Positions 26,645 to 62,601 of a DNA stretch of 64,000 nt are shown one piece after another; position 1 is the stretch's first letter, and every line of letters starts with the position of its first letter. Source of the DNA: Thermococcus chitonophagus (lineage in GTDB: Archaea; Methanobacteriota_B; Thermococci; Thermococcales; Thermococcaceae); NCBI RefSeq assembly GCF_002214605.1, contig NZ_CP015193.1, positions 124,001 through 188,000 of the forward strand, given 5' to 3'. A program made the translations under genes and the position numbers. The notes beneath the pieces are model-generated. The model saw only the letters and a list, made by a program, of their open reading frames with translations. It did not search any database and was not told the DNA's origin.

Positions 26645-27414
26645 CTTTCAATTCTCTTCTAGTCATATTGGAACGTTTAATGCGAGGTATGCTAAATTAT
26701 CGAGATATCAACTTTCAATTCTCTTCTAGTCTTATTGGAACAAGCAGTAGGGGCAGCGATACTTACCCCAAGCCGTCATTTCTTTCAATTCTCTTCTAGT
26801 CTTATTGGAACTTCAAACCTCCGATCGACGTTAAAGCATTCGTTGAGAACTTTCAATTCTCTTCTAGTCTTATTGGAACATGGTGAACGACGACAGGGCG
26901 TTCAAGGCAGGCTACCGTCTTTCAATTCTCTTCTAGTCTTATTGGAACCAAACTTTGTTAATACCCTGAAGAACAACTTCTTAGGCTTTCAATTCTCTTC
27001 TAGTCTTATTGGAACTTGGGGACTGCAGCAGGAGCTGGATGTTTTGCCACTTTCAATTCTCTTCTAGTCTTATTGGAACTGAGATGGGAAATGTTGACGT
27101 GTCGATTATAGAAGTCTTTCAATTCTCTTCTAGTCTTATTGGAACGTGCTCGCCGCAATAATAGCCGTCGCCGCAGTCTCGTCTTTCAATTCTCTTCTAG
27201 TCTTATTGGAACAGCGTAAGGGTGGAGGTCTGGCTGAACAACACGAAACTCTTTCAATTCTCTTCTAGTCTTATTGGAACTGGCGCCCGGCCGAGCTGGG
27301 CCCGTCCGGAATGAAGCTCTTTCAATTCTCTTCTAGTCTTATTGGAACAAAGATAACTTTTGCCCTAACCTTCTCGGGGTCAAACTTTCAATTCTCTTCT
27401 AGTCTTATTGGAAC
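26645..27414 (-). CRISPR. CRISPR array 1, 12 repeats of 30 bases, read on the minus strand
   Basis: On the plus strand the repeat starts CTTTCAATTCTCTTCTAG and ends TCTTATTGGAAC; in the transcribed direction it is GTTCCAATAAGAC...GAATTGAAAG, a Pyrococcus-type repeat. Repeats start at 26645, 26712, 26782, 26850, 26919, 26986, 27050, 27116, 27183, 27249, 27319 and 27385. Spacers are about 34-40 bases. Only the first (26645) carries a substitution (CATATT for CTTATT), which marks the leader-distal end and puts the leader on the right. No cas gene is adjacent. Confidence 0.97.
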
Positions 27415-33575: not shown

Positions 33576-34652
33576 ATGATAACATCCCTCCACATTAAGA
33601 ATTTTAGAGGTATCTCAGAGTTACGTCTCACCGATTTAGGCCAAGTTAACGTTATCGTAGGAAGGAATAATGTTGGAAAATCATCTATTCTTAAAGCAAT
33701 TTCAATTGCCTTAGGAGCCGTAAATCAGGATGTATCAGTACTAAAGGAAATTCTAAATCGAGTGTTAAAGTGGAGGGGATGGTTAAAACGTGCATCGGTG
33801 CACTCTTTGTTTAATACCCCTTCGACCCCAATAGAGCTAACATTCGTTGCCAACAATACTCCCTTTTCCGCGAGATTCATGTACCCCAGCTATCTCCCGC
33901 AGACCATTGAAAAAGAATTCGGTATCAAGTTTGACAGTGAGACTCTCAAGAACATGCTTTCAGAATCTGTTGAGATTGTACCGGTCCAGATTAAAGCAGG
34001 TTCATTTAGCCGTAGAGCCTTGGTTTTAATTTCAGAGAATGGAGCAATGGTAATAACTACCCCTAACGACGAATTATATCCAATCGAATTTCCTATTGAG
34101 TTTGTAACGCCTTATGACATGAGCACTCCTGGATTTATTGAAGAGGTTTTTTCAAAGGCGTTTAAGGCCAAGTCTTATTATAAGGCACTTGAAATTATCC
34201 AAGAAGCATATCCGGAAGTCGAAGGGCTTAGCCCTGTCCCCGAAGATGGAAGTGTTCTAATGTATGTAGACACAAAACATGCCCCCAAAAGCATTCCCTA
34301 CTATAGTATGGGGGATGGATTCAAGTTCCTCTCTATGATAGCATTTCTCGTTTCTTCAACAAAAAATGGATACCTCCTTATAGACTCCGTTGAAGCGTTC
34401 CACCATCCCAAATCACTAGAAGTGACCACTGAAACTCTAATAAAAGGAGCGAAAGAAAATAACGTTCAAGTTTTTTTAACAACTCATAGCCTAGAGTTTA
34501 TTGATACGATTCTAGAATACGGAATGGAAGAAAGTGTCAATGGGAGGATCATTTATATAAAGCAGGAAAAGGGGGAACTCGTGCATAGTATAGAGACATT
34601 TGAAAACGCCAAAGAGATCAGAGAGATCCTCGGAATCGATTTAAGGGGATGA
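33576..34652 (+). CDS. AAA_15/OLD-type ATPase, partner of a TOPRIM-like protein
   Basis: 358 residues of the ABC/SMC-like ATPase group used in OLD, Gabija and PARIS systems. It starts SLHIKNFRGISELRL (the typical 'NFR' strand), with Walker A GRNNVGKSS at 29-37, a signature-like YYSMGDGFKFLSM, Walker B LLIDSVEAFHHP (about 267-278, with Ser where Glu often follows Asp), and the H-loop TTHSLEF. GGAGGTAGAG precedes the ATG. Only 34 bases separate it from wtpB. Its codon use looks more AT-rich than that of the wtp genes, suggesting acquisition. Confidence 0.85.
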   Translation: MITSLHIKNFRGISELRLTDLGQVNVIVGRNNVGKSSILKAISIALGAVNQDVSVLKEILNRVLKWRGWLKRASVHSLFNTPSTPIELTFVANNTPFSARFMYPSYLPQTIEKEFGIKFDSETLKNMLSESVEIVPVQIKAGSFSRRALVLISENGAMVITTPNDELYPIEFPIEFVTPYDMSTPGFIEEVFSKAFKAKSYYKALEIIQEAYPEVEGLSPVPEDGSVLMYVDTKHAPKSIPYYSMGDGFKFLSMIAFLVSSTKNGYLLIDSVEAFHHPKSLEVTTETLIKGAKENNVQVFLTTHSLEFIDTILEYGMEESVNGRIIYIKQEKGELVHSIETFENAKEIREILGIDLRG

Positions 34653-34655
34653 ATT

Positions 34656-35369
34656 ATGGAGGTTAACATATTATTGGTAGAGGGCCAGACAGACAGGGCC
34701 GTCTTTGAAACTCTGATAGAAAAGATCTACGGCTTCAGGAAAGAGAAAGTCGAGATTGAGGGGCTCGGAAAAACGGGGTTTAATTTAACATATGTAACAT
34801 TCAGGAAAGACAATACTGTTATAGTCCTGATAAACGCTCAAGACAAATACAGAATGAAGGACGTCCTTAGAAATGTGCTCTCATGGGCCAATTTCCACAA
34901 AGTAAAACTCCATAGAATTAGCTTGTTGAGGGATATAGACACAAATCTTGATATAATAGGGTGGGCCAAGAGTTCCCTTAGACAATTTAGCCCAACTGTG
35001 AAAGGAACTTCTCTATGGATTAATGACACCGAAATTATACCTTTCGGCCTTGGTAATGTTGATATTGAGAACCCAGTCATTGAGAAAAAGAGAGAGCTTG
35101 AACTACTGCTCACACTACTTGCAGAAAAAGAGAGCACGCTATCAAGGTTCCAGCGTTCTTTAAATCAACTTAAAGAAGACACTGGAAGAAGGCTCAAGCC
35201 TAAAGATATTATGCATGTTCTTGCGATTGCAAAGGAATACGATGGGAACTCAATGTCAGGGCTCTATAGAAAACTCATTGAAGACATACTCAGAAGGAAT
35301 CCTGAGGTCATAGAGGAGTTTCTTAAAGAAACTGGACTAAGAGAGTTTTTAGATAAAATAACCGGGTGA
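34656..35369 (+). CDS. TOPRIM-like protein (DUF3226/DUF4435 type), ATPase partner
   Basis: 237 residues. The TOPRIM signature is readable: [16 protein letters not shown] with E9, and [11 protein letters not shown] with D93 and D95. OLD-type TOPRIM domains are metal-dependent nucleases; PARIS AriB is a TOPRIM toxin held by an AAA_15 ATPase. The rest of the protein is helical and charged. The start lies 3 bases after the ATPase stop, so the pair is co-translated. The exact family is not certain. Confidence 0.7.
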
Positions 35370-38251: not shown

Positions 38252-38825
38252 ATGAGGCTCAAGCTGTCCTTTCTTCCCCTCAATGAAATGGGAGAGTGGA
38301 GAGAGAACAAGCACGCCGTTCAGGGGTTCATCTATGCGATGCTCAAAGACTCGGAGTATGGCTTGAGGCATGACGAGAAGAGGTTCAAGTTTTTCACTTT
38401 TTCGGACATCTTTAGGGATTCTAAGGGACTCTACACGCTCCTGATATCTTCCCCGGACAGGGGGTTCATAGAGACCATCTACCAGAACGTCAAAGACAGG
38501 GAAACGATATACATAGGGAAAGACGAGTTTAGGCTCATTGAGGTCAAGAAGTTCAGGCTTAAACTGAAGAGGGCGTTTCAGACCGGTTCCCCGGTTGTAA
38601 TATACAAGGACTCTACCGAAGCTGAGGAGGAACGGGAAGCTTGATGTGTACGTTAAGGTTGTGAAGAACGGAATTCCGTTTCCAGTCATAGGGAGCAACT
38701 GGGAGTTGCTCGAGAAGGAGAGGATAAAGCCAGAAGAGAGGAAGCTCTACGAGTTTATCATGGACTGTGGCCTGGGGGAGAAGAACTCCCTCGGTTTTGG
38801 GTTTTTGAATCCGATAAGGAGGTGA
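38252..38825 (+). pseudogene. cas6: cas6, frameshifted and internally shortened
   Basis: Cas6 cuts CRISPR precursor RNA. The N-terminal RAMP fold is present (MRLKLSFLPLNEMGEW..., through VVIYKDST), and the C-terminal glycine-rich loop is clear (DCGLGEKNSLGFGFLNP). Between them the reading frame changes at about 38635: the first frame stops at 38644, and the second reads KLDVYVKVVKNGIPFPV. The total is about 190 residues against 240-265 for Pyrococcus Cas6, so a mid-protein segment of some 60 residues is missing as well. Functional Cas6 must come from elsewhere in the genome. Confidence 0.85.
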
Positions 38826-38829
38826 TCTA

Positions 38830-41085
38830 GTGGATATAAGGGACTTAATAGCCTTAGGAGGCCTCCTTCACGACATAGGTAAGCCCGTCCAAAGGGCCCG
38901 CCTTTATAATGGAGATCATTCAATTCAAGGCCACAACTTTCTCCTCGATCTTGCGGAGAAAACTGGAGTCAAGGAATACGAAATTCTTGCCCTCTTCTCA
39001 AGGTTCCATCATAAGAAGTATATGGAAGAAGTGAGAGAGCTTAATATCCCTAACGACATAAAGATTGCTCTATATGTTGTCTACGTAGCAGACAACATTT
39101 CCTCAAAGGAGAGGGAAGAAGAAAAAGGATATGATATTAGAAGACCCCTGAAGTCGGTCTTCAACAGAAACTTAGGTTATCCCCTTTATGAGCTCAACCT
39201 AGAGACATTGCCCATCCCGGGAGAAGTGGATGGGATAACGAGCGAAGAGTACAGGAAGCTCGTTAAAGCGCTCAAGGAAGACTTGAAAAAGGTAGAGCTA
39301 AGAGTCGACAAGGTAATGCCTATTCTGGAGAAGCACTTAACCTTCGTTAGTTCTGTCACGACGGAAAACAACGTGATATCCCTCTACGACCACCTTAAGA
39401 TGACTTCAGCTATCGCGCTAGCCCTGTACAACGCTGGCTGTAGGCCAGGAAGCGTCGAAGAAGCTGAAAGGTGCATGAGGGAGAAGAACCTCCTCCTTGT
39501 AGAGGGTGACTTTTCCGGAATTCAGAACTTCATATACTCGGTGAGTGGGAAGGGGACGCTCAAGTACCTTAGGGCAAGGAGTGCCTACCTGGAGCTGATA
39601 GGCTGGGACATCGTTCTCAAGATAATAGAGGATTTAGACCTAACACTTGCCAATGTTGTCTTCAACGCCGGCGGGCACTTCATGATAATAGCTCAGAACA
39701 CAAAGGGGGCAAGGAACAAGCTTGAGGATATCAGAAGAAAGGTGACGGAGTGGCTATGGAAGAAGTTTGAAGGGAGGCTGTACATAGGAATTGACTGGGA
39801 AGAATGCACGGGAGAAGAGTTAATGAAGGATTTCAACAAAGTCAGGGGGAGGCTGAAGAAAAAGGTTACGATAAGAAAACTAAAGAGGTTCGAGTTTGTA
39901 AACAATGTTTTCACGGTTGGAGACAGAGGCAGGTTAGAGGAGTGCCAAATCTGTGGCGTTGAGGTTCCAGAGGAGGAGCTAAAGGAATTAGGGTTTGAAG
40001 ACGGAGAGGTAGCAAAAGTCTGTGAAACCTGTCACGCTCTCTGGTTCCTGGGAGAGAAGCTAATAAAGATGGAGAAAGGCCTCGTTCTCACAGACAAAAT
40101 AACTGGGGAAGGGATTCCGGGGCCCTTCTCGGAGTTTCTACCATATGAGGGGCAACTGCAAGGGAAGTACCTCCTGATGAAGAACACTTTCAGCCCTCCC
40201 AGGACGGACATGGTTTTCGTTCCTTACATAGTCGCCGACTACTATAGGGAGAAGGAGGGGAGGGTAATAAACTTCAATGAACTCGCGGAAGAGTCAGTGG
40301 GAGCAAAGAGAATTGGAGTTATAAAGGGGGACGTTGATAAACTGGGAGAGTATTTCGCCAATAGAAAGTCAATATCAGAGTACGCTACCGCTTCAAGGTT
40401 CATGGACTACTTCTTCAAGTTCTACCTAAAGGGAGTAATTCGGGGGTACTACTCCGATATTATTGGGGAAGTTCCCTCCCTGGGAGAGTGGAAGGAGAAT
40501 CCAAATGTAGTCGTCGTGTACGCCGGTGGAGATGATTTCCTCATAGTGGGGAGCTGGAACGAGATTTTTGAGCTTGCCTTCAGGATAAGGGAGGCCTTCA
40601 GGAAGTACACGGGAGAAGGCCTTACAATTTCAATAGCCCTGGGCTACTTCCACTCGAAGACACCGATATACAGGATCGCGGATGTGATGACGGAGAGGTT
40701 AGAGAAGGCTAAAGAGGAGGGAAGAGACGCCATCTACGTAATCGAGAGAACAGGATGGAGAATCTCTTATCCCTGGGATATTTACATGGACTTTTGGAGA
40801 GAGATTGGGAGGAAAGTGTACAGTGATGGCAGGTTAACCGGAAAGTTCAGGGATAAGAAAGGGCTACTCCACAAGGTACTCGAGCTCAGGGAACTCTATG
40901 TCAGGGATCCTAAGGATGTAAGATGGGCTTATCTCCTCGCATATCACCTTTCTAGGCATGAGGTCGAGGAAGTGTTTAGGAAGATTCTGGGTATAGACTC
41001 CAAAACATTAGAGGAGGAGAAGCCCCAGCCGATTTATTGGGTTGATGGGATATTGAAAGTTATTCTCATGGCCGTTAGGGGGTGA
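38830..41085 (+). CDS. csm1: Cas10/Csm1, type III-A signature protein
   Basis: The large subunit of the Csm complex. It makes cyclic oligoadenylates and cuts single-stranded DNA on target-RNA binding. 751 residues: an HD nuclease domain with GGLLHDIGKP (H14, D15), a zinc finger CQICGVEVPEEE...CETC (about 374-401), and the cyclase Palm with YAGGDDFLIV (GGDD near residue 566), both intact. GTG start at 38830 with GGAGGTGATC, which overlaps the cas6 end. Confidence 0.94.
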   Translation: MDIRDLIALGGLLHDIGKPVQRARLYNGDHSIQGHNFLLDLAEKTGVKEYEILALFSRFHHKKYMEEVRELNIPNDIKIALYVVYVADNISSKEREEEKGYDIRRPLKSVFNRNLGYPLYELNLETLPIPGEVDGITSEEYRKLVKALKEDLKKVELRVDKVMPILEKHLTFVSSVTTENNVISLYDHLKMTSAIALALYNAGCRPGSVEEAERCMREKNLLLVEGDFSGIQNFIYSVSGKGTLKYLRARSAYLELIGWDIVLKIIEDLDLTLANVVFNAGGHFMIIAQNTKGARNKLEDIRRKVTEWLWKKFEGRLYIGIDWEECTGEELMKDFNKVRGRLKKKVTIRKLKRFEFVNNVFTVGDRGRLEECQICGVEVPEEELKELGFEDGEVAKVCETCHALWFLGEKLIKMEKGLVLTDKITGEGIPGPFSEFLPYEGQLQGKYLLMKNTFSPPRTDMVFVPYIVADYYREKEGRVINFNELAEESVGAKRIGVIKGDVDKLGEYFANRKSISEYATASRFMDYFFKFYLKGVIRGYYSDIIGEVPSLGEWKENPNVVVVYAGGDDFLIVGSWNEIFELAFRIREAFRKYTGEGLTISIALGYFHSKTPIYRIADVMTERLEKAKEEGRDAIYVIERTGWRISYPWDIYMDFWREIGRKVYSDGRLTGKFRDKKGLLHKVLELRELYVRDPKDVRWAYLLAYHLSRHEVEEVFRKILGIDSKTLEEEKPQPIYWVDGILKVILMAVRG

Positions 41086-41089
41086 TTTT

Positions 41090-41566
41090 GTGGATCCTTT
41101 TGTTGTTAAGAACCAGTTGAAGATGGACAAAAATTACTGGAGCAAGGTGGAGCCGAAGGTTAAGGAGATAGCAAGAAAGGCTGAAAACTTCCAAGACTGG
41201 GAGCCAGGAGAAACCCTCGACTATGCGATAACAATAGCCTCATATCTAGTTTCGAAAGATCTGAGAACTAACCAGATAAGGAAGATACTTGAGATGGTAA
41301 GGAACGTCGAGTTGAAAGTAAAGACCGGAAGGGATGAAGACATAAGAGACGATGTTGCAAGAATAAGGCTTCTTTTGGCGTACACGGTAGGAAAGTCGCA
41401 GAAAAATACCAGAGAGGCATTGGAGCACTTGTATATGGTTCTGGAACCAATACTGAAAAAGATGAGTGAAGACAACAATTTCGCGGTCAATAATTTTGGC
41501 AAGTTTTTCGATTTCCTCCAAGCAATAGTCGCTTATCATAGGTTTTTAGGAGGGAAGGAGAAATGA
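41090..41566 (+). CDS. csm2: Csm2 small subunit
   Basis: A 158-residue all-helical protein in the csm1-csm3 slot, where Csm2 forms the inner filament of the complex. GTG start at 41090 with GGGGTGATT. ATGA overlap with csm3. The central charged block (TIASYLVSKDLRTNQIRKILEMVRNVE) resembles Csm2 helices. The call rests on position, size and helicity more than on motif. Confidence 0.85.
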   Translation: MDPFVVKNQLKMDKNYWSKVEPKVKEIARKAENFQDWEPGETLDYAITIASYLVSKDLRTNQIRKILEMVRNVELKVKTGRDEDIRDDVARIRLLLAYTVGKSQKNTREALEHLYMVLEPILKKMSEDNNFAVNNFGKFFDFLQAIVAYHRFLGGKEK

Positions 41567-42426
41567 ACAGGGAATTTTATGGTAAGGTCATTATAGAGGG
41601 AGAGATCGAGGCTCTCACGGGTCTTCACATAGGGGCGCAGAGGGATATCTCCGAGATAGGTGGAATTGACAATCCAGTTATAAAGGATCCGCACACAGGT
41701 CTGCCATACATCCCAGGTTCCTCCCTGAAGGGGAGGCTTAGGTCCCTCTTCGAGATCTATGTCAACTCGAAACTCGATGAGCTTAAGGATCAGTACAAAG
41801 GGCTAAAGAATTACACGAAAGGTAGTTGCAGGGAAATAGGGAAAGAGAACTGTGGGAGGTTTTTCAACAGAGAACTGCATAACATCTGGATCCACGTTTG
41901 CAACACATACGAGGAAGCAAGGAACTGTCCAGTCTGTAGGCTGTTCGGGGCGAGCGGAAAGGAGAGTAACTTCCCCTCTAGGGTAATAGTTAGGGATGCC
42001 TTCCTAACGGAGGAGTGGAAGGAGAAGTGGAGGAAGGGAGAAGAGATCACCGAGGCTAAAATTGAAGTCGGAATAGACAGGATAACATCCCAGGCTAACC
42101 CCAGGACTACTGAAAGAGTTGTCGCTGGAGCAAGGTTCAACTTTGAGATTATCTACACGGTCGAAGATCTAAATGAGGTGGAAGACGATCTAAAGCATCT
42201 CCTTATGTCGATGCTTCTCCTAGAGGACAGCTACCTTGGAGGTTCCGGAAGCAGGGGGTACGGTAAGGTCAAGTTCCACATCAAGAGGATAGCGTTCAAG
42301 CCCAGGGAGTTCTACGAGACCGGCGATGAAGGGAAAATAAAATCCACTAAACAGTACAAGAGCGTCCAAGAGTTACTGAACAACATAAGCGATGTTATAA
42401 GCCTGATAAAACCCCAAGGGGGCTAG
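41563..42426 (+). CDS. csm3: Csm3, backbone subunit with target-RNA nuclease
   Basis: A 287-residue Cas7-type RAMP protein. The catalytic Asp that slices target RNA every six bases is expected in GAQRDISEIGGIDNPVIK (D28, matching D33 of Streptococcus Csm3). YIPGSSLKGRLRS is the first RAMP glycine loop, and GGSGSRGYGKVKF the C-terminal one. The cysteines CSRxxC and CPVCRLF may bind zinc. Repeated copies make the spine of the Csm effector. Confidence 0.95.
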   Translation: MNREFYGKVIIEGEIEALTGLHIGAQRDISEIGGIDNPVIKDPHTGLPYIPGSSLKGRLRSLFEIYVNSKLDELKDQYKGLKNYTKGSCREIGKENCGRFFNRELHNIWIHVCNTYEEARNCPVCRLFGASGKESNFPSRVIVRDAFLTEEWKEKWRKGEEITEAKIEVGIDRITSQANPRTTERVVAGARFNFEIIYTVEDLNEVEDDLKHLLMSMLLLEDSYLGGSGSRGYGKVKFHIKRIAFKPREFYETGDEGKIKSTKQYKSVQELLNNISDVISLIKPQGG

Positions 42427-42431
42427 ATGTT

Positions 42432-43289
42432 GTGGGCAAGTACTTAGCAATTAAGATGATTCCGAAGGGGCCCTTCAGGGAAATCCCGAAGGCCACCACA
42501 CTCTTCGGAGCGATAGCCAACGCCGTAAGAGAGATCTACGGGGGTTATGAAACAGAAAAGTTCATAAGGGAGTTCAGCGAGAAAGCCAGGATTTCCTCTG
42601 CTTTTCCCTACTTGGGAGAAGAGTATTTCCTTCCTTTCCCCCTGAACGCCGAAGCAAGCCTATATGAGATCTTCAAGGGAGACATCTCAAAGATCAAGGA
42701 GACAAGAGAGAAGCCTTACATACCTTTAGACGCATTTGAGAAGGCCATAAGGCTCCAAGAGTTCACGGTGAAAGATATTCCCTACAAGAGGGTGGAGATA
42801 CCAAAGGTTTCGCTGGACAGGGTTTCCCAGGACTCTTCAATTTACTTCTGGGATGCAGTCGTGTTCAAGGAAAATGGTGGTCTCTACTTCCTATATGACG
42901 GGCCAAAAGATTTCTTTGAGAGGTACATAGGGCCCGCAATGAACTTCCTGGGGGATCATGGGATTGGAGGGAAGGGAACCTGGGGCTACGGATTGTTCGT
43001 GCCGGAAATAACGGAAGTCTACATAGACGAGCCCCAGGGAAACGCCTTCGTCACTTTATCCCCGATGTACCCGAGGAATGAGAACTCGCTGATCCTGTGG
43101 AAGGTCGAGAAGATCGGGGGATGGAGCTGGGGGAGGAGGAAGCCAAAGGTGCCAATGGTTCTGGAGGGATCCGTGATCAGAGACGATCCAGGAAAGATGA
43201 TCGAGCTCGATCTAGGCCTCCCGTTTAAAATTTACGTGAACGGAAAGGCCTTCCCAATTAAAGCTGAAGCCCCGAGGGATGCTCTATGA
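42432..43289 (+). CDS. csm4: Csm4, crRNA 5'-end cap subunit
   Basis: A 285-residue Cas5-like RAMP. It holds the 8-nucleotide crRNA 5' tag and contacts Cas10. Typical features are the N-terminal PKGPFREIPKATTLFGAI and the late GIGGKGTWGYGLF glycine loop. GTG start at 42432. Overlap with csm5 (ATGA). Confidence 0.93.
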   Translation: MGKYLAIKMIPKGPFREIPKATTLFGAIANAVREIYGGYETEKFIREFSEKARISSAFPYLGEEYFLPFPLNAEASLYEIFKGDISKIKETREKPYIPLDAFEKAIRLQEFTVKDIPYKRVEIPKVSLDRVSQDSSIYFWDAVVFKENGGLYFLYDGPKDFFERYIGPAMNFLGDHGIGGKGTWGYGLFVPEITEVYIDEPQGNAFVTLSPMYPRNENSLILWKVEKIGGWSWGRRKPKVPMVLEGSVIRDDPGKMIELDLGLPFKIYVNGKAFPIKAEAPRDAL

Positions 43290-44440
43290 ACGTTCTAACT
43301 CCGCTCCACATAGGAAACGGGAACGAGCTAACGCCAATAGACTTCTATCCTAGGGACAATGAGATTCTAGTTCTGGACGTCGAAAGGCTAGTGCACGACC
43401 TGCAGAGGCTTGGAGCCGATATAGGAGAGATCCTCGATATGATAAGGAACCCAACTGAAGACCTCTACGTCTGGAAGAAGTTTTTCGCCGAGTACAGGAT
43501 AAATCCGGAGCAGTACGCTAAGTACAAACTTAAGGTGAGGGGCAGGATAGGGAAAATGAGCTCGAGGATAAGGGAGTTCATAAAGGAAAATGGAAAGCCC
43601 TACATTCCCGGGAGTTCAATAAAGGGGGCAATAAGGACTGCAGTAATGTATGAGATCATCAAGGAGTGTGGAAACACGCTCACGGTTATAGAAGCCCTAA
43701 AAGAAGGGGCAAAAGTAGCAGGGAAAGATCCAATAGCGGTGCAGGGGCTTATAAGGGGCATAGGACATCCCGCGAATAGCGATATCCTCGATTACTACAT
43801 CCACTACATCGATATGGAGATCAAGAGGGCCTCCCAAAGGAGGAAGGGGGTAAACTTAAGGACAATTGACGACCTCTTAGAGGCGATAGTCTTCGGGTTC
43901 GATATTGGAAGGGGTGGAGTAAGGCACGAACCCAAGAGGGATCCACTGAGAGCCCTCATCGTTAGGGATTCCTCAAAGGTACAGCTCAAGAATCTAGCAG
44001 TTTATGAAGTCAGGATTATTGGAGCAGACGTTGACATTCCAGTGTGGGTCGAAGCACTAGAGCCGAACACCACGTTCAACGTTGAGGTTAAGTTTGACAA
44101 GGACTTAGCAGAGAGGAACTCCAGCTACTTCAACGGCCTCCTCTGGCACTGTAAAGGTGAGGAATTGGAAGATTTCATCTGGAAGGCAGTTGAGGACTTC
44201 TATGGTGAATTGGCTAGGATTGACGGAATTAGGGGGTCAAACCTCCTGAGAATAGGTTGGGGCAAGGGCTGGGTGTCTAACACCATAGGCCTTCTCCTAA
44301 AGAGGAAAGGTCAGAAATGGGAGAGGGTTAGGAAAAAGCTGGGACTTGGTAAAAAACCCAAAGGAAAGAGCATTTCCTCAGTATTTCCCAAGACCAGGAG
44401 AATTGCAGACGGAATGCCAATGGGGTGGGTAGAGTTATGA
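43286..44440 (+). CDS. csm5: Csm5, crRNA 3'-end subunit
   Basis: A 384-residue RAMP that caps the 3' end of the Csm filament and recruits nucleases for crRNA maturation. MNVLTPLHIGNGNELTP at the start and YIPGSSIKGAIRTAVMYE (about 106-123) are diagnostic. The C-terminal part has GWGKGWVSNTIG. It is the last csm gene; its stop overlaps the start of the broken csx1 gene. Confidence 0.93.
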   Translation: MNVLTPLHIGNGNELTPIDFYPRDNEILVLDVERLVHDLQRLGADIGEILDMIRNPTEDLYVWKKFFAEYRINPEQYAKYKLKVRGRIGKMSSRIREFIKENGKPYIPGSSIKGAIRTAVMYEIIKECGNTLTVIEALKEGAKVAGKDPIAVQGLIRGIGHPANSDILDYYIHYIDMEIKRASQRRKGVNLRTIDDLLEAIVFGFDIGRGGVRHEPKRDPLRALIVRDSSKVQLKNLAVYEVRIIGADVDIPVWVEALEPNTTFNVEVKFDKDLAERNSSYFNGLLWHCKGEELEDFIWKAVEDFYGELARIDGIRGSNLLRIGWGKGWVSNTIGLLLKRKGQKWERVRKKLGLGKKPKGKSISSVFPKTRRIADGMPMGWVEL

Positions 44441-45543
44441 AGGTCTTGATTTCCCCCTGGGGGAACTTCAGGAGCTGGAGTGAAGTGGAGTACCACTTCG
44501 AAGGTAAACGCATGAAATCGAAATCCCCGCTCCCCCTCCTTCACGATGCGATTGAACCGGACAAAACCATGGTTATCCTGCCGGATACCCTCGCAAGTGA
44601 TCTAGAAAGGGCGGAGAGAGAAGTCGAGGAAGGGGCCAGGGAATTCCTGAGGGAGCTTGGAGTTGAGGCAGAGGTAATAGTGATCCGGGAACTGGGAAGT
44701 TCCCCAACGGAGAGTTCCTGGGGCATCCAACGGACGCCTATTACTATCTCACCTACAGGCTTTCCCGGGAGATTCCAGTGAAAGATCTCGAGGTTCACCT
44801 CGACATAACCCACGGCCTGAGTCACAAGCTTAGGTGTAAACGTGATAGAGGAGAGGAATATTGTAGAGAGACCAGTAAGCGAGAAGGTAGGGAAACGGGT
44901 ACTCAAAAATTACTCCCTCGAGAACGCTGAATTTGGCAGAATAATGGCAAAGTTCAGGATTAACTCGGCGAAGCTCAATCTCTGGACTTCTTCAATATTA
45001 CTTGGACTACCCCTACTCCTAGCAACCACTCACCCAAATCTAACCGAAATACTTCAAATACTGGATGAGGCCCTCTGCGAGTTTAGGGAAAATACCGAAG
45101 TTCAAGGGAAGACCCTCGAGAGGAGGATTGGATTAGGAAAAGATTTCGCAACGCTATCAAAGCTCGCCTTTCAGGTTAGGGTTATCAACTGTCTCCTAGA
45201 GGATATGAACCTGCCCAAGGAAGAATTATCCGCCGACGAGCTTTTCGAAATAGCGGATAGGGTGTTCAAAGGCAGAATCGGGGCATCAACAAGAAAGGAA
45301 ATAGACAGGATACTAACAAGGGTTGGAGACGTGAAGGAGTGGACTAGGCTAAGAGAGTTCTTCCCGAATGCAAACCCCCAGGTAGACCCCAGGAACTTCT
45401 TAGCCCATGCTGGCCTCGAAGCTAACCTAGTGGAGGTAAAGAGAGAGAAGGACGTGCTTTTTAGGTATACTAAGGATCGGGTTCTCTACGGAGGGAAGAT
45501 GGAAGATCCATGGAGGGTTATATCGAGGATTTTGGGTGGTTAA
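44437..45543 (+). pseudogene. csx1: csx1 (CARF-HEPN), frameshifted and missing part of the CARF domain
   Basis: Csx1 is a ribonuclease switched on by cyclic tetra-adenylate. The first part (MKVLISPWGNFRSWSEVEYHF to REL) ends out of frame at 44781. The correct continuation in another frame reads FPNGEFLGHPTDAYYYLTYR and LDITHGLS, where intact relatives continue with NYMPVLTY-type sequence. Then the frame changes again to VIEERNIVERP. The HEPN part is readable, with the RNase motif R-N-F-L-A-H (RxxxxH). The total is about 370 residues against 450 or more for intact relatives. ATG 44437 overlaps the csm5 stop. Confidence 0.8.
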
Positions 45544-46798
45544 AGTGCTCCTCCCATATATGAGGAATGGCGAACTATTTTTGGAAAGAATTGGAGTAAA
45601 GGAAGTTAGTGAAGATGTGGTTAAGGAGAAGTACCTCGAACCAATAAAGGCCCTAACCCTCGACTTAATTCCGGTGGAAGATGACGCCCAAGCCCTCAAG
45701 CTATTAAAGAGCTACGGCTTCGAAGTTGCCGTAACTAGTAAGAGCATACTAGATGCTTTTCTAAAGAGGAGGAAGGGAGTATGCTCAATCTGCGGTAGGG
45801 AGGGAGAAGTCGTTGAGAACAGGGCCTTCATATACCCTTTCGAGAGGAAGATAGATTCTATAGTAAACGAAAAGAACAGGCTGACCTTCTGCTTAGAACA
45901 CGCCTTCAAGCTCTATTCGGCAATGGGATACCTCTACGTAGTCCCCATCGGAGGGAAGGATAAGCTCAAGTTCTTCTTTGAAGGTGAAAGCAGGGCATTT
46001 AGAAGATTTTCCTACCTGTTCAGGGAGTTCTGGAAGGAGAAATCGAATGTAAACAGGGACAGGGTAGTAACAAAGCTCAGCTTAAAGCCCTACCACGGGA
46101 ACGAGGCGTTCTTCTCAGTCCTCTACGACTTCGTTGACTTCCTCAGGGGAAGAAGGATGATACAGGAAGCCTACGATATCGAGAGGAGTATAAGGGCATA
46201 CCTAGTCTACGGCTCGGGCCAGTTCTACGGATCAACTATCGTGGAGGGGACTAGGCTCGTAGAGCTCACGAAGTTCCTGGCAACTTTAGCGGAGAAGAAG
46301 GTTGTGAAGGGCTTTTTTGACGACCTCGTTATTCCAAGGGGTAAGGATAAAAAGAAGAACACGCTCGAGAGGGAGAAGTTCTTCTCGAAACTGCTGGACG
46401 GAAAGTTCGATTTTATCTTACTGAACCAGATATTCATTGAGAGGGTGAAGAGAAAGTTGAGGGTGCCGAGATATTATCTTCCCTGGGCTCGCGCGTATTT
46501 TGAAGCCTTCGGAGGTGATATCTTGAACCTGGAGGTTTTTGAAAGGATAAACGGGCTGGGCTACTCCCTGGGGAAGAAAGTGAAGGGAACGAACCTAGAG
46601 AAGTACTTCTGGGAGCTCTTCAGGGCCAGGGGCTTTGAGGAATTCATGAACAAACTTGTCGAACTGCAGGCCAAGCTCGAAATTAGTATGGACGTTAGGC
46701 CCTTCTACGAGAACGAGAAGAATTGGAAGGTTTTGAAGGCCATCCTCCTGAACGGTATGCTAAACGCGATCCACGGTGGTGAAGATGAAGGCAATTGA
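45536..46798 (+). CDS. cas8: Cas8 (Cst1/Cas8a1-like), large subunit of a type I Cascade
   Basis: 420 residues. It carries a zinc-finger-like pair CSICG (82-86) and a following FCLEHAF. The order Cas8-Cas7-Cas5 fits the Cst (I-B/I-G type) cascade seen in Pyrococcus. Cas8 recognises the PAM and recruits Cas3. GTG start overlaps the csx1 end by 8 bases. The family is fast-evolving, so the assignment rests largely on position and zinc motif. Confidence 0.8.
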   Translation: MVKVLLPYMRNGELFLERIGVKEVSEDVVKEKYLEPIKALTLDLIPVEDDAQALKLLKSYGFEVAVTSKSILDAFLKRRKGVCSICGREGEVVENRAFIYPFERKIDSIVNEKNRLTFCLEHAFKLYSAMGYLYVVPIGGKDKLKFFFEGESRAFRRFSYLFREFWKEKSNVNRDRVVTKLSLKPYHGNEAFFSVLYDFVDFLRGRRMIQEAYDIERSIRAYLVYGSGQFYGSTIVEGTRLVELTKFLATLAEKKVVKGFFDDLVIPRGKDKKKNTLEREKFFSKLLDGKFDFILLNQIFIERVKRKLRVPRYYLPWARAYFEAFGGDILNLEVFERINGLGYSLGKKVKGTNLEKYFWELFRARGFEEFMNKLVELQAKLEISMDVRPFYENEKNWKVLKAILLNGMLNAIHGGEDEGN

Positions 46799-47768
46799 AG
46801 TTGTTACCCTAACAAAGGTTGAGGGGGCAAATCTAAACTCGAACGGAACCGAGGGGGTAATCTCGGTCTTAAAGAAGGTAAGGGATCCAGTGGACGGGAG
46901 GGAGTACGTTAGGATCTCGGGGCAGAGCGTGAAGTACCACCTAAGGCAGATCCTCAAAGAATTAGGCTGGGAGCTCAGCCAGATAGTCCCCAGGGCTGAA
47001 GGTGGGCAGAAAGTCATAGTTTCCCAGGGAGAGCCACACAGGTACATAGACGATGACCTCTTCGGCTACATGATTGCCAAGAAAGTCGAGGGCAAGAACG
47101 CCACCCTAAGGAGAACCGCGGTCGTGAGAACTAACGGAATGATGTCGATATTCCCCTACCAGGAGGACAGGGACTTTGGAGTTCGCTACGATCCGACGGG
47201 GGATCAGCACAACATATACGAGACCGAGATAACTACAAACGTCATGAGGGGGAACTTCTTCATAGAGGTTGACAGGCTTGGGGTTTTCAAGGAGGGCCTA
47301 GAGGTTCCAAGGCTTGAGGGCCTTGAAGTCAGGAGGGAGAGGGATCCGACGGGCAATGAGGTAACGCTCTACGTCCTACCAAAGGAGGAGAGGGAGAAGA
47401 GGCTTAGGGCGATAATAAAGGCCATCCTAGAGTACCACGGTGGGGCTAAGCTAAGCAACTTCTTCACCAAGGTGTACCCTGAGATTGCAGTTGTGGTATT
47501 ACTGAGGAGGAAGATACCAGTGGTTGGAGATGCATTACGGGTCAAGGAAGGTTACGTTGACGGGAAGTTCGTTCTAGACGTGGAGAGGCTCAAGGAGACG
47601 CTTGAGGCCTTCAGAGACAACATAGAAAAGATCTACATAGGGCTATTTGAGAGCAGGTTCGCCAACGTTGAAGAGCTTAAGGAGGCGTTCAAGGACTGGG
47701 ACAACGTGAAGATAATGAGCATGAAAGACCTGAAGGAGGAGATGGAGAAAATAGGCCTCGGTGAGTGA
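46785..47768 (+). CDS. cas7: Cas7 (Cst2/DevR family), Cascade backbone
   Basis: 327 residues. Cas7 forms the helical backbone along the crRNA. The first strand has EVVTLTKVEGANLNSNGTEG, then VRISGQSVKYHLRQIL and TRRTAVVRTNG-type sequence, as in the DevR/Cst2 group. ATG 46785 with GGTGGTGA upstream is better than the GTG at 46776. It overlaps Cas8 by 14 bases and Cas5 by 4. Confidence 0.92.
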   Translation: MKAIEVVTLTKVEGANLNSNGTEGVISVLKKVRDPVDGREYVRISGQSVKYHLRQILKELGWELSQIVPRAEGGQKVIVSQGEPHRYIDDDLFGYMIAKKVEGKNATLRRTAVVRTNGMMSIFPYQEDRDFGVRYDPTGDQHNIYETEITTNVMRGNFFIEVDRLGVFKEGLEVPRLEGLEVRRERDPTGNEVTLYVLPKEEREKRLRAIIKAILEYHGGAKLSNFFTKVYPEIAVVVLLRRKIPVVGDALRVKEGYVDGKFVLDVERLKETLEAFRDNIEKIYIGLFESRFANVEELKEAFKDWDNVKIMSMKDLKEEMEKIGLGE

Positions 47769-48448
47769 AATTGCTTGGACTTGTGGTGGACGCAAGGCCC
47801 CTTCAGGCGCACTTCAGGGTCCCCCACTCCTCCCTACTTTTAGAGACCTATCCTTTTCCGCCAAAGACGACAGCTATAGGAATGGTTGCTGGGGCAATGG
47901 GACTCGGTGAGAGAAACTTCCTCCAACTGGTGAGGGAGGTAAAGTATGGCGTGATAATAGAGGATCCTGGGGAAAGGATTGAGGAGGTAAGTGCGATATA
48001 CAAGAACCCCTACTCCCCAAGCTACCCGATAACGAGGGTTTCCCTGTACAAGCCGAGGTTCAGGATGTTCTTCCTTGGTGAGGAGGAGGTAATTGAGAGG
48101 GCATATGATGCCTTACAGGATCCTGTGTACGTCCCCTACATGGGCGACAGCGAGAGCCTCTTTTATCCCAACGGAAGGAAGTTCGTTGAGATATTGAACG
48201 TTGAGGAAGGGGAAGAAACAACGCTAAGGAGTGTTCTCCCTGGGGATGCAAAGATAAAGGAGTTCAAACCCCTTAGGAAGAGGATCCAAGTCCCCAGGAT
48301 GTACGAGGCTCCAGTTGACTTTACCGTTAAGGGCAAAAGTAGGAGAGCGGTGTATGGGAAGTTCGTTGCGTTCTCTGGAGGCTTCGTCGAGCTCGAAGAG
48401 CCCCTGAAAGTTGTGCTCTTCGATGGGGAACCGGTGTTCGTGTTTTAG
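47765..48448 (+). CDS. cas5: Cas5 (Cas5t-like), Cascade crRNA 5' cap
   Basis: 227 residues. N-terminal DARPLQAHFRVPHSSLLLETYPFPPKTTAIGMVAGAMGLG is the Cas5 start with the glycine loop. Cas5 holds the crRNA 5' handle in the Cascade. GTG start at 47765 overlaps the cas7 stop. Last gene before the leader of array 2. Confidence 0.92.
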   Translation: MKLLGLVVDARPLQAHFRVPHSSLLLETYPFPPKTTAIGMVAGAMGLGERNFLQLVREVKYGVIIEDPGERIEEVSAIYKNPYSPSYPITRVSLYKPRFRMFFLGEEEVIERAYDALQDPVYVPYMGDSESLFYPNGRKFVEILNVEEGEETTLRSVLPGDAKIKEFKPLRKRIQVPRMYEAPVDFTVKGKSRRAVYGKFVAFSGGFVELEEPLKVVLFDGEPVFVF

Positions 48449-48990: not shown

Positions 48991-50288
48991 GTTTCCGTAG
49001 AACTCAATAGTGTGGAAACATCGCCTTCTTGGCACCCTCCTTGATCCATCCTGGGAGTTTCCGTAGAACTCAATAGTGTGGAAACTCAATAAGCCAGCCT
49101 ATGGCTCCTCCAACGAGTTTTCCGTTTCCGTAGAACTCAATAGTGTGGAAACATGGCCTTGACAACGATATCCCCCAATGCGGGGAAAGCGTTTCCGTAG
49201 AACTCAATAGTGTGGAAACACTACAAACTTGCTCAATCCATGACTCCTTGCAAATTCGTTTCCGTAGAACTCAATAGTGTGGAAACGAAAATCCACTCTT
49301 TCGACAGTTCGTCCTTTTCAACAACTCCAGTTTCCGTAGAACTCAATAGTGTGGAAACAAAATTTCTTGAATGACTTTTATCGAGTGCTCTGCCCCCTCT
49401 ATCCCTGCAATCTCAGGTTTCCGTAGAACTAAATAGTGTGGAAAGCTAAGTCGTCCGTATGAATTGTACCTGCCGCACTTGGTTTCCGTAGAACTAAATA
49501 GTGTGGAAAGGGGCCTGTTTACCGGGGCTAAGAAATACGGCTGGCTGGGTTTCCGTAGAACTAAATAGTGTGGAAAGATCTCAAGAACCCTAAGCCTGCT
49601 ACCCTAGCAGTTGTGTTTCCGTAGAACTCAATAGTGTGGAAAGTTTTTCTGGGTGGGTTCTAACGTAGGTGGTTACTTGGGGTAGTATGTTTCCGTAGAA
49701 CTCAATAGTGTGGAAAGTGGATCCTCCTAAAGCGCCATTCGGCCATCCTGCTGGCCCTTCTGAAGTTTCCGTAGAACTCAATAGTGTGGAAAGAAGGCTT
49801 TCTGGAGTGATGGCCCGCTGTTCTGCCTGTCCTTTGTTTGTGTTTCCGTAGAACTCAATAGTGTGGAAAGACACTAACTTCCTGCTCCTCAAATCCCAAT
49901 TTTATAAGTTTCCGTAGAACTCAATAGTGTGGAAAGGTCAAGTTGCGGACGATCTTGGCGTGGGCCCTGTCGAGGGCCTCGAAGGTTTCCGTAGAACTCA
50001 ATAGTGTGGAAAGAGGGATTCTTGATCCATCAAATGTGTCACCAAAATCAGTTTCCGTAGAACTGAATAGTGTGGAAAGATTATCTTCTGTACCAACTGC
50101 TCTGCGTTTTCAACACGTTTCCGTAGAACTGAATAGTGTGGAAAGCCGATGCTCTTTATTCCGCTCTCCTTGATTCCCCCTATGGTTTCCGTAGAACTGA
50201 ATAGTGTGGAAAGTCCATATTTGATCTTGGCGATCCTACTCCTGATATTCGGAGCCATAGTTTCCGTAGAACTGAATAGTGTGGAAAG
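48991..50288 (+). CRISPR. CRISPR array 2, 19 repeats of 29 bases plus a degenerate terminal repeat
   Basis: Repeat GTTTCCGTAGAACTNAATAG followed by TGTGGAAAG or TGTGGAAAC, a P. horikoshii-like type. Starts: 48991, 49057, 49124, 49191, 49258, 49330, 49417, 49482, 49549, 49615, 49689, 49765, 49842, 49908, 49985, 50051, 50117, 50185 and 50260. A decayed copy (TTTTCCGTAGTACTTAGTAG) lies at about 50321-50349, next to cas1. Spacers are mostly 36-48 bases, with one of 58 (49359-49416). Repeat variants are layered along the array. It carries a different repeat family from array 1. Confidence 0.98.
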
Positions 50289-50354: not shown

Positions 50355-51308
50355 ATGAAAAGCCCAATATATATTACCCAGCCCGGGATATTGGAGAGAA
50401 AGGCAAATACAGTTTTCTTCGTGAACGAGAACGGAAAGAAAGCTTTGCCAATACAGAACATAAGTGAGATCCACTGCTTCGCTCCCACAACATTAACCAG
50501 TGGGGTAATAAAGCTACTTGCAGATAACGACGTTCCCGTGCACTTCTACAATAAGTATGGCTATTACCGAGGCTCCTTCATGCCCGCCGAAGGCCAGATT
50601 AGCGGAGCTATAGTGATAGCCCAAGCCTCCCACTACCTCGACAAAGAGAAGAGAGCCTATATAGCCAGGGAGTTCCTGAACGGAATAAAGGCCTCGATGA
50701 TAAGGCTACTCAAATCCCAGAGCGTGGACCCAATGGACATTGAGGAGATCGAGGTAAGAGGAGAGAGCGCCCAGGAACTCATGGGGATCGAAAGTCAGCT
50801 ATGGAAAGCATTCTACGAAAACTTTGCTGGAATGCTAAAGTACTTCTCCTTCGATGAGAGGAACAGGAGGCCACCGAGGGATGAGGTAAATGCAATGATA
50901 AGTTATGGGAACTCAGTTCTCTACACTGTAACCCTATCCGAAATCAGAAAGACCTACCTCCACCCCGCCATAAGCTTCCTGCACGAACCATTAGAAAGGA
51001 GGTACTCCCTATCCCTCGATTTGGCGGACATATTCAAGCCAATAACAGTCTTCAGGGTGATACTAAGGTTAGTGAACCGGAGGAAGATAAAGGAGGAGCA
51101 CTTCTCAAGGGACGTTGGTGTCCTACTAAACAGAGAGGGCCTAAGGATATTCCTGAAGGAGCTCAATGATGAGCTCGAGAGGAAAGTTATGCACCCAAAG
51201 CTCAAGAGAAAGGTCTCAATAAGGTATCTTATTAGGCTTGAAGCTTATTCCCTCGTGAAGCACGTCCTGGGGGATAAGGAGTACAAGGCCCTTAGGGCGT
51301 GGTGGTGA
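50355..51308 (+). CDS. cas1: Cas1 integrase
   Basis: 317 residues, Cas1 of the I-B-like branch. Catalytic residues: Glu in LMGIESQLWKAFYE (about 145), His in KTYLHPAISFLHEP, and Asp in SLDLADIFKP. It integrates new spacers with Cas2. ATG 50355 lies a few bases after the decayed end-repeat of array 2. Overlaps cas2 at the stop. Confidence 0.96.
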   Translation: MKSPIYITQPGILERKANTVFFVNENGKKALPIQNISEIHCFAPTTLTSGVIKLLADNDVPVHFYNKYGYYRGSFMPAEGQISGAIVIAQASHYLDKEKRAYIAREFLNGIKASMIRLLKSQSVDPMDIEEIEVRGESAQELMGIESQLWKAFYENFAGMLKYFSFDERNRRPPRDEVNAMISYGNSVLYTVTLSEIRKTYLHPAISFLHEPLERRYSLSLDLADIFKPITVFRVILRLVNRRKIKEEHFSRDVGVLLNREGLRIFLKELNDELERKVMHPKLKRKVSIRYLIRLEAYSLVKHVLGDKEYKALRAWW

Positions 51309-51565
51309 TGTACGTTATAGTTGTCTACGATGTCTCCGTTGAGAGGGTTAACAGGGTCCACAAGCTCCTAAAGACTTACCTCTTCTGGAGGCAAAACAGC
51401 GTATTCGAGGGGGAGTTGAGTAAGGCACAGCTGTACGAGCTCAAGAGAAGGTTAAGCAGGATAGTAAAGGATGAGGATTCGGTCTTAATTTACGAGCTTC
51501 CCTACAAGAACTTTAACCTCCACGTTATTGGAACTGATAAAAGCCCCGTGGAGACGATACTATGA
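51308..51565 (+). CDS. cas2: Cas2
   Basis: 85 residues with the ferredoxin-like start YVIVVYDVSVERVNRVHKLLK, including the conserved Asp. Structural partner of Cas1 in spacer integration. ATG 51308 (GGTGGTG upstream) overlaps the cas1 stop by one base; the open frame starts at 51299. Overlaps cas4 by 4 bases. Confidence 0.95.
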   Translation: MYVIVVYDVSVERVNRVHKLLKTYLFWRQNSVFEGELSKAQLYELKRRLSRIVKDEDSVLIYELPYKNFNLHVIGTDKSPVETIL

Positions 51566-52050
51566 GGGTAACTGGGCTTATGATACAGTACTACTTCACG
51601 TGCAAGAGGGAGCTCTGGTTCTTTTCGAGGGGCGTAAACTTCGACTTCGAGAACGACGACATGATAATAGGAAAGATAATTCACGAGGAAGCTAGGGAGG
51701 GGGACTGGAAGGAGATACTGCTTGAAGACATAAAGATCGACGCCATAAAGAGGAAAGGAGGACTCAGGGTCATAGAGATAAAGAAGAGCTCGAAGCTTGA
51801 AGAGCCCGCGAAGTGGCAACTAAAATACTACCTCTACTATCTCAAAAAGGCCGGAATTGAGGCTGTAGGCATTATCTCGTATCCAAAGGAGGGGAGGCAG
51901 GAGGAAATAAAGCTAACGAGGGAAGATATTAGGGTTCTTGAGGACGCCATAAAGGAGATAGAAGAGATAATTGCATCGGACAAACCACCAAAGGCAGTTA
52001 AAAAGCCTTATTGCAAAAAATGTTCCTACAAAGATTTTTGTTGGGTGTGA
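51562..52050 (+). CDS. cas4: Cas4 nuclease
   Basis: 162 residues of the RecB-like Fe-S exonuclease group, which trims prespacers to PAM. Cys14 (FTCKREL) and the C-terminal YCKKCSYKDFC supply the four Fe-S cysteines. The nuclease core has GKIIHEE and RVIEIKKS (ExK). ATGA-type overlap with cas2. Confidence 0.95.
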   Translation: MRVTGLMIQYYFTCKRELWFFSRGVNFDFENDDMIIGKIIHEEAREGDWKEILLEDIKIDAIKRKGGLRVIEIKKSSKLEEPAKWQLKYYLYYLKKAGIEAVGIISYPKEGRQEEIKLTREDIRVLEDAIKEIEEIIASDKPPKAVKKPYCKKCSYKDFCWV

Positions 52051-52053
52051 GGG

Positions 52054-54123
52054 ATGGATGAGTTAATAGGGATACTGAGGAAGAAGCTTGCAAAGCCAGA
52101 TAAAACCCTCTATGATCACTCTGAAAGGGCTAAGAGAATTGCCGAAAAACTCCTCGATAGGATAAATTGTGGGGAACTCAAAGATTGCATACTCCAGCAC
52201 GTCTTCTTGCACGACATAGGGAAGATAGATGACAGATTCCAGGAGAAGTTAAAGAGAGGTGGAAGGGCCCCTCCTCACGCTTATTTGGGAATCGAGCTCG
52301 CTTCAAGGTTCATCGACTGCGAGAGCCCATATAAGGAGATAGCCCTCCTCTCGATATTAACCCACCACAGCGACTTCCACGTCAACCTCTACCAGGATGA
52401 GATAGAGAGAGATGAGAAGCTGATAGTTAACGGCAAGGTAATCTCAAAGCCGGCAGAAACTGTACTCTGGCTAAGGGATGAAGTCTTTCCAGATTTTTTC
52501 GAGTTTGGAACTAATGAGTACTCTCCAGAGGAGCTCAGGAACCTCTACTCTCTATTTAACGGGGTTTTAAGGTTAGCAGATTGGCTCGAAAGTGCATCGC
52601 TAAGCCCGGAGATGTACCACACGAATAAGGAATTCGTACATGAGAGGGTTCTGGAATACCTCAGGAGGAGGGGCTTCAAACCTAGGGGTTATCAACTCCT
52701 AGTCATCGGAAAAGGCCCCGGCTATTTCCTCCTCCCAACGGGAGACGGAAAGACTGAAACTAGCCTATTAGCGACCCCAGAGTCAGTGAAAGTAGTCTAC
52801 ACCCTCCCGACAATAACCACCGTGGAGGGAATCAGGAGAAGGCTTGAGGAGATGTTCGGAAAGGAGAAGGTATCTTTTGGACATAGTATGCTCTTCTACT
52901 CCCTCTACAGAGAGGGAAGGCTCGATGAGAGGCTAATAAACAGGTACGCCATGAAGAAGATCCACGTCTCAACCATTGACCAAGTGCTTTTGGCTTTCCT
53001 CAACTACTTCAGATTTCCACTGAGGGAATTCTCCCTGAGGAGGGCCCACCTGATAATTGATGAGATACATTCCTACTCACCGTTCACGATGAGCCTGATC
53101 CTTGAAGGTATTGAGTTTGCAATGAAGTTCCTGGGGACTAGGGTAACCTTAATGTCGGCAACGATGCCCTCGCTCCTCCAAGAAAAGCTCAAGGAAATCG
53201 GATTAAAAGAGTTAATCCCCTTTGAAGAGGTCAGGGAGAGGTACGCAAGTAGGAAGAGGGTTACCGTGAAGTTTCACGACTACGGAATAATGGATGCAAT
53301 AGATGAAATCGTTAATGCAAAGGGAAAAGTCCTAGTGGTAGTTAATACCGTTACTAAGGCCCGAGAATTGTACGAGGCCCTGAGGGAGCACAGGGATGAC
53401 GTTTACCTCTTCCACTCGAGGTTCACGGTCAGGGACAAGCAGGAGAAGATGAGGCTTGTTGAGGAGATAAGGTCCGGAATTCTAGTTGCAACTCAGGTGG
53501 TGGAGGTTTCGCTGGACATAGACTACGACGTAATGTTCACCGAGGTTTCGCCCGTAGATTCCCTGATACAGAGGTTTGGGAGGGTGAACAGGAGAGGGTT
53601 AAGGAATGGCATTGTACACCTCTACACGCCCGAGAGGTATTTACCCTACACCAAGAGGGCAATTTCCATCTCCCTGACATTAATTGGTGAGTTAGAGAGC
53701 GCAAAAAGTGAACTAGACTTCCTAGCAGTTAATGACCGCTATTACGAGGAGCTCTGGGACGAGTATGAGAGGGCATTTAAAGAGGAGTGGCTCCACAAAC
53801 ACGGGCTGAGAACGATCCACAGGTTTAAAGCTGGAGAGAAGTGGCTATCGACGAGGGACACCTTTATATCCCTACCAGCGGTTCCCAGGAACTTCTGGGA
53901 TAAAGTTGTAGAGTTCGCGGAAAACTGGGGTAAGATGAGTGACGAGGAAAAGCTAGAGGCCACAGTTTACGTTATAGAGAACACCGTGAACGTCCCCATA
54001 TGGATACTCGAAAAGGCAAAGATAATCGACGAGAAAGTCTATTCAATCTTCGGTGTTTTCGGGATAGACATTGAGTACTCCTCCGAGTTAGGCTTAATTG
54101 AGGGCAGGGAGATAATATTCTAG
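52054..54123 (+). CDS. cas3: Cas3 nuclease-helicase
   Basis: 689 residues. HD nuclease at the N-terminus with VFLHDIGKIDD (H53, D54) and LTHHSDFH, then an SF2 helicase: Walker A LPTGDGKTETSL (about 229-240), DEIH box (IIDEIHSY, about 335), SATMPS and QRFGRVNRRG. Degrades target DNA recruited by the Cascade. Both domains are on one chain. ATG 52054 is 3 bases after cas4. Confidence 0.95.
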   Translation: MDELIGILRKKLAKPDKTLYDHSERAKRIAEKLLDRINCGELKDCILQHVFLHDIGKIDDRFQEKLKRGGRAPPHAYLGIELASRFIDCESPYKEIALLSILTHHSDFHVNLYQDEIERDEKLIVNGKVISKPAETVLWLRDEVFPDFFEFGTNEYSPEELRNLYSLFNGVLRLADWLESASLSPEMYHTNKEFVHERVLEYLRRRGFKPRGYQLLVIGKGPGYFLLPTGDGKTETSLLATPESVKVVYTLPTITTVEGIRRRLEEMFGKEKVSFGHSMLFYSLYREGRLDERLINRYAMKKIHVSTIDQVLLAFLNYFRFPLREFSLRRAHLIIDEIHSYSPFTMSLILEGIEFAMKFLGTRVTLMSATMPSLLQEKLKEIGLKELIPFEEVRERYASRKRVTVKFHDYGIMDAIDEIVNAKGKVLVVVNTVTKARELYEALREHRDDVYLFHSRFTVRDKQEKMRLVEEIRSGILVATQVVEVSLDIDYDVMFTEVSPVDSLIQRFGRVNRRGLRNGIVHLYTPERYLPYTKRAISISLTLIGELESAKSELDFLAVNDRYYEELWDEYERAFKEEWLHKHGLRTIHRFKAGEKWLSTRDTFISLPAVPRNFWDKVVEFAENWGKMSDEEKLEATVYVIENTVNVPIWILEKAKIIDEKVYSIFGVFGIDIEYSSELGLIEGREIIF

Positions 54124-62538: not shown

Positions 62539-62601
62539 GCTAGACAATCACAACGGGAAACATATAACCCTTTCCACCCTATATCTATACTAGGTGGTAT
62601 T

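Follow-up and report, generated by a model that had tools for sequence, protein, structure and literature searches.

A broken cas6 in a nearly complete CRISPR locus of Thermococcus chitonophagus, and its possible replacement in trans

The locus

How does a CRISPR locus obtain its crRNAs when its own cas6 is broken? The question is raised by a stretch of 64,000 nucleotides (here called the window) from Thermococcus chitonophagus, which corresponds to C1:124001-188000. The genome is one contig of 1,961,979 bases and is 99.89% complete. The gene order is cas6 - csm1-5 - csx1 - cas8-cas7-cas5 - array 2 - cas1-cas2-cas4-cas3. The features are as follows.

26645..27414, minus strand: CRISPR array 1, 12 repeats of the GTTCCAATAAGACTAGAAGAGAATTGAAAG family (family 1)
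38252..38613, plus strand: 5' piece of cas6, encoding the N-terminal half (catalytic-type Tyr, His and Lys); the frame holds up to the deletion junction
38613..38614, plus strand: junction of the 143-bp cas6 deletion, relative to intact orthologs
38614..38825, plus strand: 3' piece of cas6, read in a different frame and carrying the glycine-rich loop GLGEKNSLGFGF
38830..41085, plus strand: csm1/cas10, full length, HD and GGDD present
41090..44440, plus strand: csm2, csm3, csm4 and csm5, each full length
44437..45543, plus strand: csx1 (CARF-HEPN), broken; the counterpart in the related genome G010 is intact (405 aa, L043:14055-15272)
45536..48448, plus strand: type I-B effectors cas8, cas7 (Cst2) and cas5, full length; cas8 is named from position and orthology, without a family match
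48991..50288, plus strand: CRISPR array 2, 19 repeats of the family GTTTCCGTAGAACTNAATAGTGTGGAAA(G/C) (family 2)
50355..54123, plus strand: cas1, cas2, cas4 and cas3, full length

The type III-A (csm) module thus has csm1 to csm5 all at full length, but its own Cas6 and Csx1/Csm6 are not intact. An earlier reading of this DNA from its sequence alone had taken the remaining csm genes to be functional, which holds for csm1-5 but not for csx1. In this gene one base is deleted near 44684, a stop follows at 44779-44781, and a further 110 bp are missing at about 44818; together these changes separate the CARF part from the HEPN part. The full-length effector genes have low dN/dS (0.04-0.12), and the range for the 12 full-length effector and adaptation genes is 0.02-0.12.

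A single deletion in cas6

The first cas6 frame opens with the ATG at 38252 and is closed by a stop at 38642-38644, and an open stretch in a different frame occupies 38628-38825, with GLGEKNSLGFGF and a few more residues near its end. Alignment to the intact G010 ortholog (L043:7712-8440) shows a single 143-bp gap at 38613/38614, and alignment to a second relative, G006, shows a gap of equal size in the same place, so that both relatives aligned agree. Past the junction, the 5' frame continues out of register to its stop. Since 143 = 3 x 47 + 2, one deletion accounts for the frame shift and the shortening alike: codons 122-168 are gone, together with parts of the neighbouring codons, a loss of about 47 residues. 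The two edges of the deletion show no run in common. The frame shift proposed in the sequence-only reading is therefore genuine, although the position given, 38635, is about 20 bases too far downstream. The gene is also shortened, as had been claimed, though not by some 60 residues relative to Pyrococcus Cas6, the appropriate yardstick being the 238-residue ortholog and not P. furiosus Cas6; and the glycine loop does survive at the end, in the other frame.

The TIGR01877 profile covers the 5' piece at positions 3-99 and the 3' piece from 151 or 153 to 200, and about 50 profile positions between them have no match. The pieces score 58.0 and 39.1 bits respectively, both below the curated cut-off of 58.65 bits, while the intact G010 ortholog scores 117 bits. 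The catalytic Tyr, His and Lys and the glycine-rich loop are all there, but divided between two frames; two tandem RRM-like domains in one frame are not found, about 47 codons of the second domain being absent. In its position before csm1 the gene resembles the csm-associated Cas6 of Pyrococcus and Thermococcus (a TIGR01877 subgroup, mostly 236-241 aa), and its identity to the G010 and G006 orthologs is 85-86% in the 5' piece and 97-98% in the 3' piece. It differs from that group in the deletion, in being two out-of-frame pieces, and in that neither piece reaches the family cut-off. Almost certainly, then, a single 143-bp deletion has inactivated the csm-locus cas6, probably recently, and no working Cas6 is made from it. 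The window cas6 is a genuine deletion pseudogene of an ordinary sort, its break being a common type of gene loss, and the CRISPR locus around it is otherwise nearly complete.

Three other accounts of the lesion were considered. That it is an artefact of assembly or sequencing is very improbable: only a single genome of the species is available, but the assembly is one nearly complete contig, the flanks align cleanly to G010 and G006, and a base-calling error cannot take out 143 bp, the gap size being the ground on which sequencing error was rejected. A working split Cas6 made from the two pieces is less credible still. The pieces are conserved relative to G010 (86% identical in the 5' piece, 97% in the 3' piece) and show no significant relaxation, but the 3' piece has no demonstrated start site, and the missing residues include a long helix, 134-154, in a structure model of low confidence (mean pLDDT 62, with much of the C-terminal half below 50), whose second domain is too weak for confident mapping of the deletion. 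The split protein was rejected because of the absent codons. The same absence tells most heavily against a programmed ribosomal frameshift that restores Cas6, for which we see practically no chance: the downstream frame is intact and conserved, but a slip is unable to provide the missing codons, and the 27 full-length orthologs are all read without a shift.

Orthologs and the modules that cas6 serves

Matches to the cas6 piece occur in 34 of the 94 family genomes, window included. At the 29 ortholog loci that were read (12 further matches had no loci given and are outside this number), 27 genes have their full length and the glycine loop, the reading starting at residue 14 or 18 in two of them. 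Of the other two, the G060 gene has been shortened without loss of frame and the G044 gene falls in a divergent subgroup. The product of the G060 gene (L083:4914-5495) has 194 aa and lacks roughly 43 residues of the N-terminal half.

The I-B Cas7 is found in 22 of the 94 genomes, two of these (G072, G080) being partial matches. A full-length csm-type cas6 accompanies it in 20 (at most two of them read from residue 14 or 18 only), and the two exceptions are the window, with its broken cas6, and G035, which is 69% complete and has no cas6 match. The reverse situation, cas6 without Cas7, occurs in 13 genomes. In G021 and G031 cas6 stands directly before cas8-cas7-cas5, with csm genes absent in the stretch read, and in G006 only a csm1-csx1 fusion is left of the csm1-to-csx1 region, and cas6 is still intact. 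This co-occurrence and these layouts indicate that cas6 is common to the I-B and III-A modules, and the csm-type Cas6 is accordingly predicted to serve the type I-B module as well. The original description gave cas6 as a gene of the Csm operon; it is not solely a Csm gene, given that in G006, G021 and G031 it accompanies cas8-cas7-cas5 and the stretch read has no intact csm genes. The window's genome is the only near-complete one among the 94 searched that keeps the I-B Cas7 without an intact cognate cas6.

It is worth adding that the G006 fusion (L044:10349-11470) is an in-frame gene of 373 codons, which joins the csm1 N-terminus (HD part) to the csx1 C-terminus (HEPN part) at a short run, GACGCT, in common with both parents. 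G006, with its csm module lost by deletion and its cas6 kept, is the mirror image of the window.

Repeat families

Family 2 numbers 63 copies in three arrays of the genome, the other two being at C1:769 kb and 1830 kb, and family 1 numbers 47 copies. The 8-nt repeat handle of the family-2 arrays is predicted to be GUGGAAAG or GUGGAAAC. The two families differ in length (29 nt for family 2, 30 nt for family 1), at five of the first 14 positions (4, 6, 7, 10 and 11), and at two of the last eight. The bases at the expected cut differ on both sides, being T and G in repeat 2 and A and A in repeat 1. Within array 2, the last base is C in repeats one to six and G in those that follow, and repeat position 15 changes blockwise (C, A, C, G) along the array.

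Among the 93 other genomes, 20 have both the csm-type cas6 and family-2 repeats, 13 have cas6 only, 7 have the repeats only and 53 have neither, as counted with a pattern that needs at least 4 copies, allows up to 3 mismatches and undercounts the family. Eight of the cas6-only genomes were read: five (G021, G025, G028, G031 and G046) carry arrays whose repeats belong to this family but are altered in the centre, and in G048, G049 and G060 family-2 arrays were not found in the stretch read. The seven repeat-only genomes speak against a strict link between cas6 and family 2. In G013 and G014, cas1-2-4-3 is present and an effector was not found in the stretch read; in G004 a match to the window's cas genes was not found in the stretch read; G035 is the 69% complete genome, and G045, G065 and G066 are outside the stretches read. 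Overall, the distribution shows the csm-type cas6 to be linked, as far as gene content can tell, to the I-B Cas7 and to repeat family 2.

The G013 and G014 loci (L058-L061) have related-repeat arrays beside cas1-cas2-cas4-cas3, and nearby effector genes or a csm-type cas6 were not found there. These arrays are apparently remnants.

Other Cas6 and Csx1 genes in the genome

A search of the genome for a second cas6 had been suggested beforehand, and one is indeed present. TIGR01877 identifies two further Cas6 proteins above the cut-off (168.8 and 159.2 bits), with both window pieces below it; the PF10040 profile found no Cas6 match in this genome. The gene at C1:1651412-1652230, in the Cmr (III-B) locus, is an ortholog of P. 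furiosus Cas6 (PDB 3pkm, 3i4h; E about 2e-121). It is full length, meets the family cut-off and, in the alignment to P. furiosus Cas6, keeps Tyr31, His46 and Lys52, which are given as the catalytic triad of that enzyme in the accessible part of PMC3652601. P. furiosus Cas6 represents a separate subfamily, and G010's intact counterpart of the window gene is only weakly similar to it (E 0.003-0.006, over short stretches). The other gene, at C1:1769847-1770416, matches PH0350 (E 9e-137; PDB 3qjj, 3qjp) and 3ufc, the latter being the non-catalytic PfuCas6nc according to the same portion of PMC3652601. The gene is of this PH0350/PfuCas6nc type and is without the catalytic residues, its triad columns reading L, M and G, and its product is not expected to cut. 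Because the triad is kept in the Cmr-locus Cas6 and absent in this third homolog, one Cas6 with a catalytic site remains in the genome.

Csx1 likewise has an intact copy in the Cmr locus, scoring 261 bits against a cut-off of 110. Both broken window genes are therefore trans-acting ones with spare copies. That the two broken genes among the seven of the cas6-csm-csx1 block are exactly those with spares has a chance of 1 in 21, a post hoc figure and suggestive only.

The source of crRNAs

On balance, the most likely working state is that the lost cas6 is compensated in trans from the Cmr locus. We propose that the III-A (csm) and I-B effectors once shared this cas6, which also served the array-2 repeat family, and that csx1 of the same operon decayed independently of it. 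The spare Cas6 and spare Csx1 of the Cmr locus could act in trans, and csm1-5 and the I-B effector genes would persist for this reason. The Csm complex would now most likely be loaded with crRNAs cut by the Cmr-locus, PfuCas6-type enzyme, the crRNAs coming from the array-1 family and perhaps from array 2 as well. Both this loading and the choice of repeats that the surviving Cas6 would cut are inferred. There is precedent: one Cas6 for several effectors, and promiscuous Cas6, appear in part of PMC4041471. The same part also gives repeat-specific Cas6 paralogs (Sulfolobus Cas6-1, and Synechocystis), and the differences between families 1 and 2 in the 5' bases, the length and the cut-site bases would count against cutting of array 2 by the Cmr-locus enzyme.

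The main rival is that cas6 is dead without a substitute for family 2, so that the pre-crRNA of three arrays goes uncut, the I-B module and the 63 repeats are silent and the operon is starting to decay. We regard this as a serious possibility, if a less likely one. It is favoured by the break in csx1 of the same operon, by decay elsewhere in the family (the csm module deleted in G006, cas6 shortened in G060), by G013 and G014, which retain family-2-like arrays and cas1-2-4-3 without a nearby effector or csm-type cas6, and by the dissimilarity of repeat 2 to repeat 1 in its 5' bases. The low dN/dS of the twelve full-length effector and adaptation genes argues the other way, but a recent loss would look alike. 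Part of PMC11096372 describes an I-B Cascade that has Cas6 as an integral subunit, and loss of cas6 could thus disable the I-B part. The statement in the sequence-only reading that crRNA processing must depend on another Cas6 is consequently too strong: such a Cas6 is present, but the repeats differ and array 2 may go unprocessed. Rather unlikely, in our view, is a Cas6 swap in progress, in which the III-A and I-B suite and its 63 family-2 repeats in three arrays have lost their cognate Cas6 and are supplied in one of two ways: by the Cmr-locus Cas6, which must then cut a repeat family that it does not normally handle alone, or through a Cas6-independent route.

Cas6-independent routes do have precedents. 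The sections available describe arrays without a cognate Cas6 whose maturation depends on another protein, namely Listeria RliB with PNPase (PMC3886909) and Synechocystis CRISPR3 with Cmr2 (PMC3575380); there is no sign of such a route in the window genome. The Sulfolobus solfataricus multi-Cas6 system likewise has several effector types, two repeat families and several Cas6 paralogs, and the accessible portion of its account (PMC4041471) differs in describing no broken cognate Cas6. A published report of the broken cas6 described here was not found in a literature search, though one may still exist. The strain is a natural knock-out for asking whether hyperthermophile Cas6 paralogs interchange between repeat families, a question to which the literature, as partly seen in PMC4041471, gives different answers by organism.

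Age and selection

Relaxed selection on cas6 could not be detected on the window branch: the two pieces together give 14 nonsynonymous and 20 synonymous changes there and 11 and 25, respectively, on the branch to G010 (p = 0.46), a comparison of few substitutions and little power. The result fits a recent loss of cas6. The genes csm1 and csm5 and the 3' part of csx1 tilt the same way on the window branch, not significantly. The dS relative to G010 is uneven along the operon (0.17-0.23 for csm2-4, 0.63 for csm1, about 1.2 for csm5 and the cas6 5' piece), so recombination complicates dating. The stretch 41090-43289, which holds csm2-csm4, is far closer to G010 than are csm1 and csm5, and this dip in dS points to block recombination.

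Neighbouring genes

Two further CARF proteins lie beyond the broken csx1. A CARF-PIN protein adjoins cas3 (54133-55578; PADLOC CARF_m1-CARF_PIN, E 3e-217), and the protein at 61468-62547 is a membrane CARF protein (PADLOC CARF8-CARF_TM, E 3e-144), both being possible candidates for cyclic-oligoadenylate effectors. At 33576-35369, set between transport-operon genes, is a pair like the candidate defence system PDC-M38, in which ATPase A matches with E 4e-43 and B weakly (E 2e-4). Lastly, a protein of 1319 residues at 55581-59540 combines a Cas4-like stretch with a helicase part, its top PADLOC match being MkoA (E 4.5e-44).
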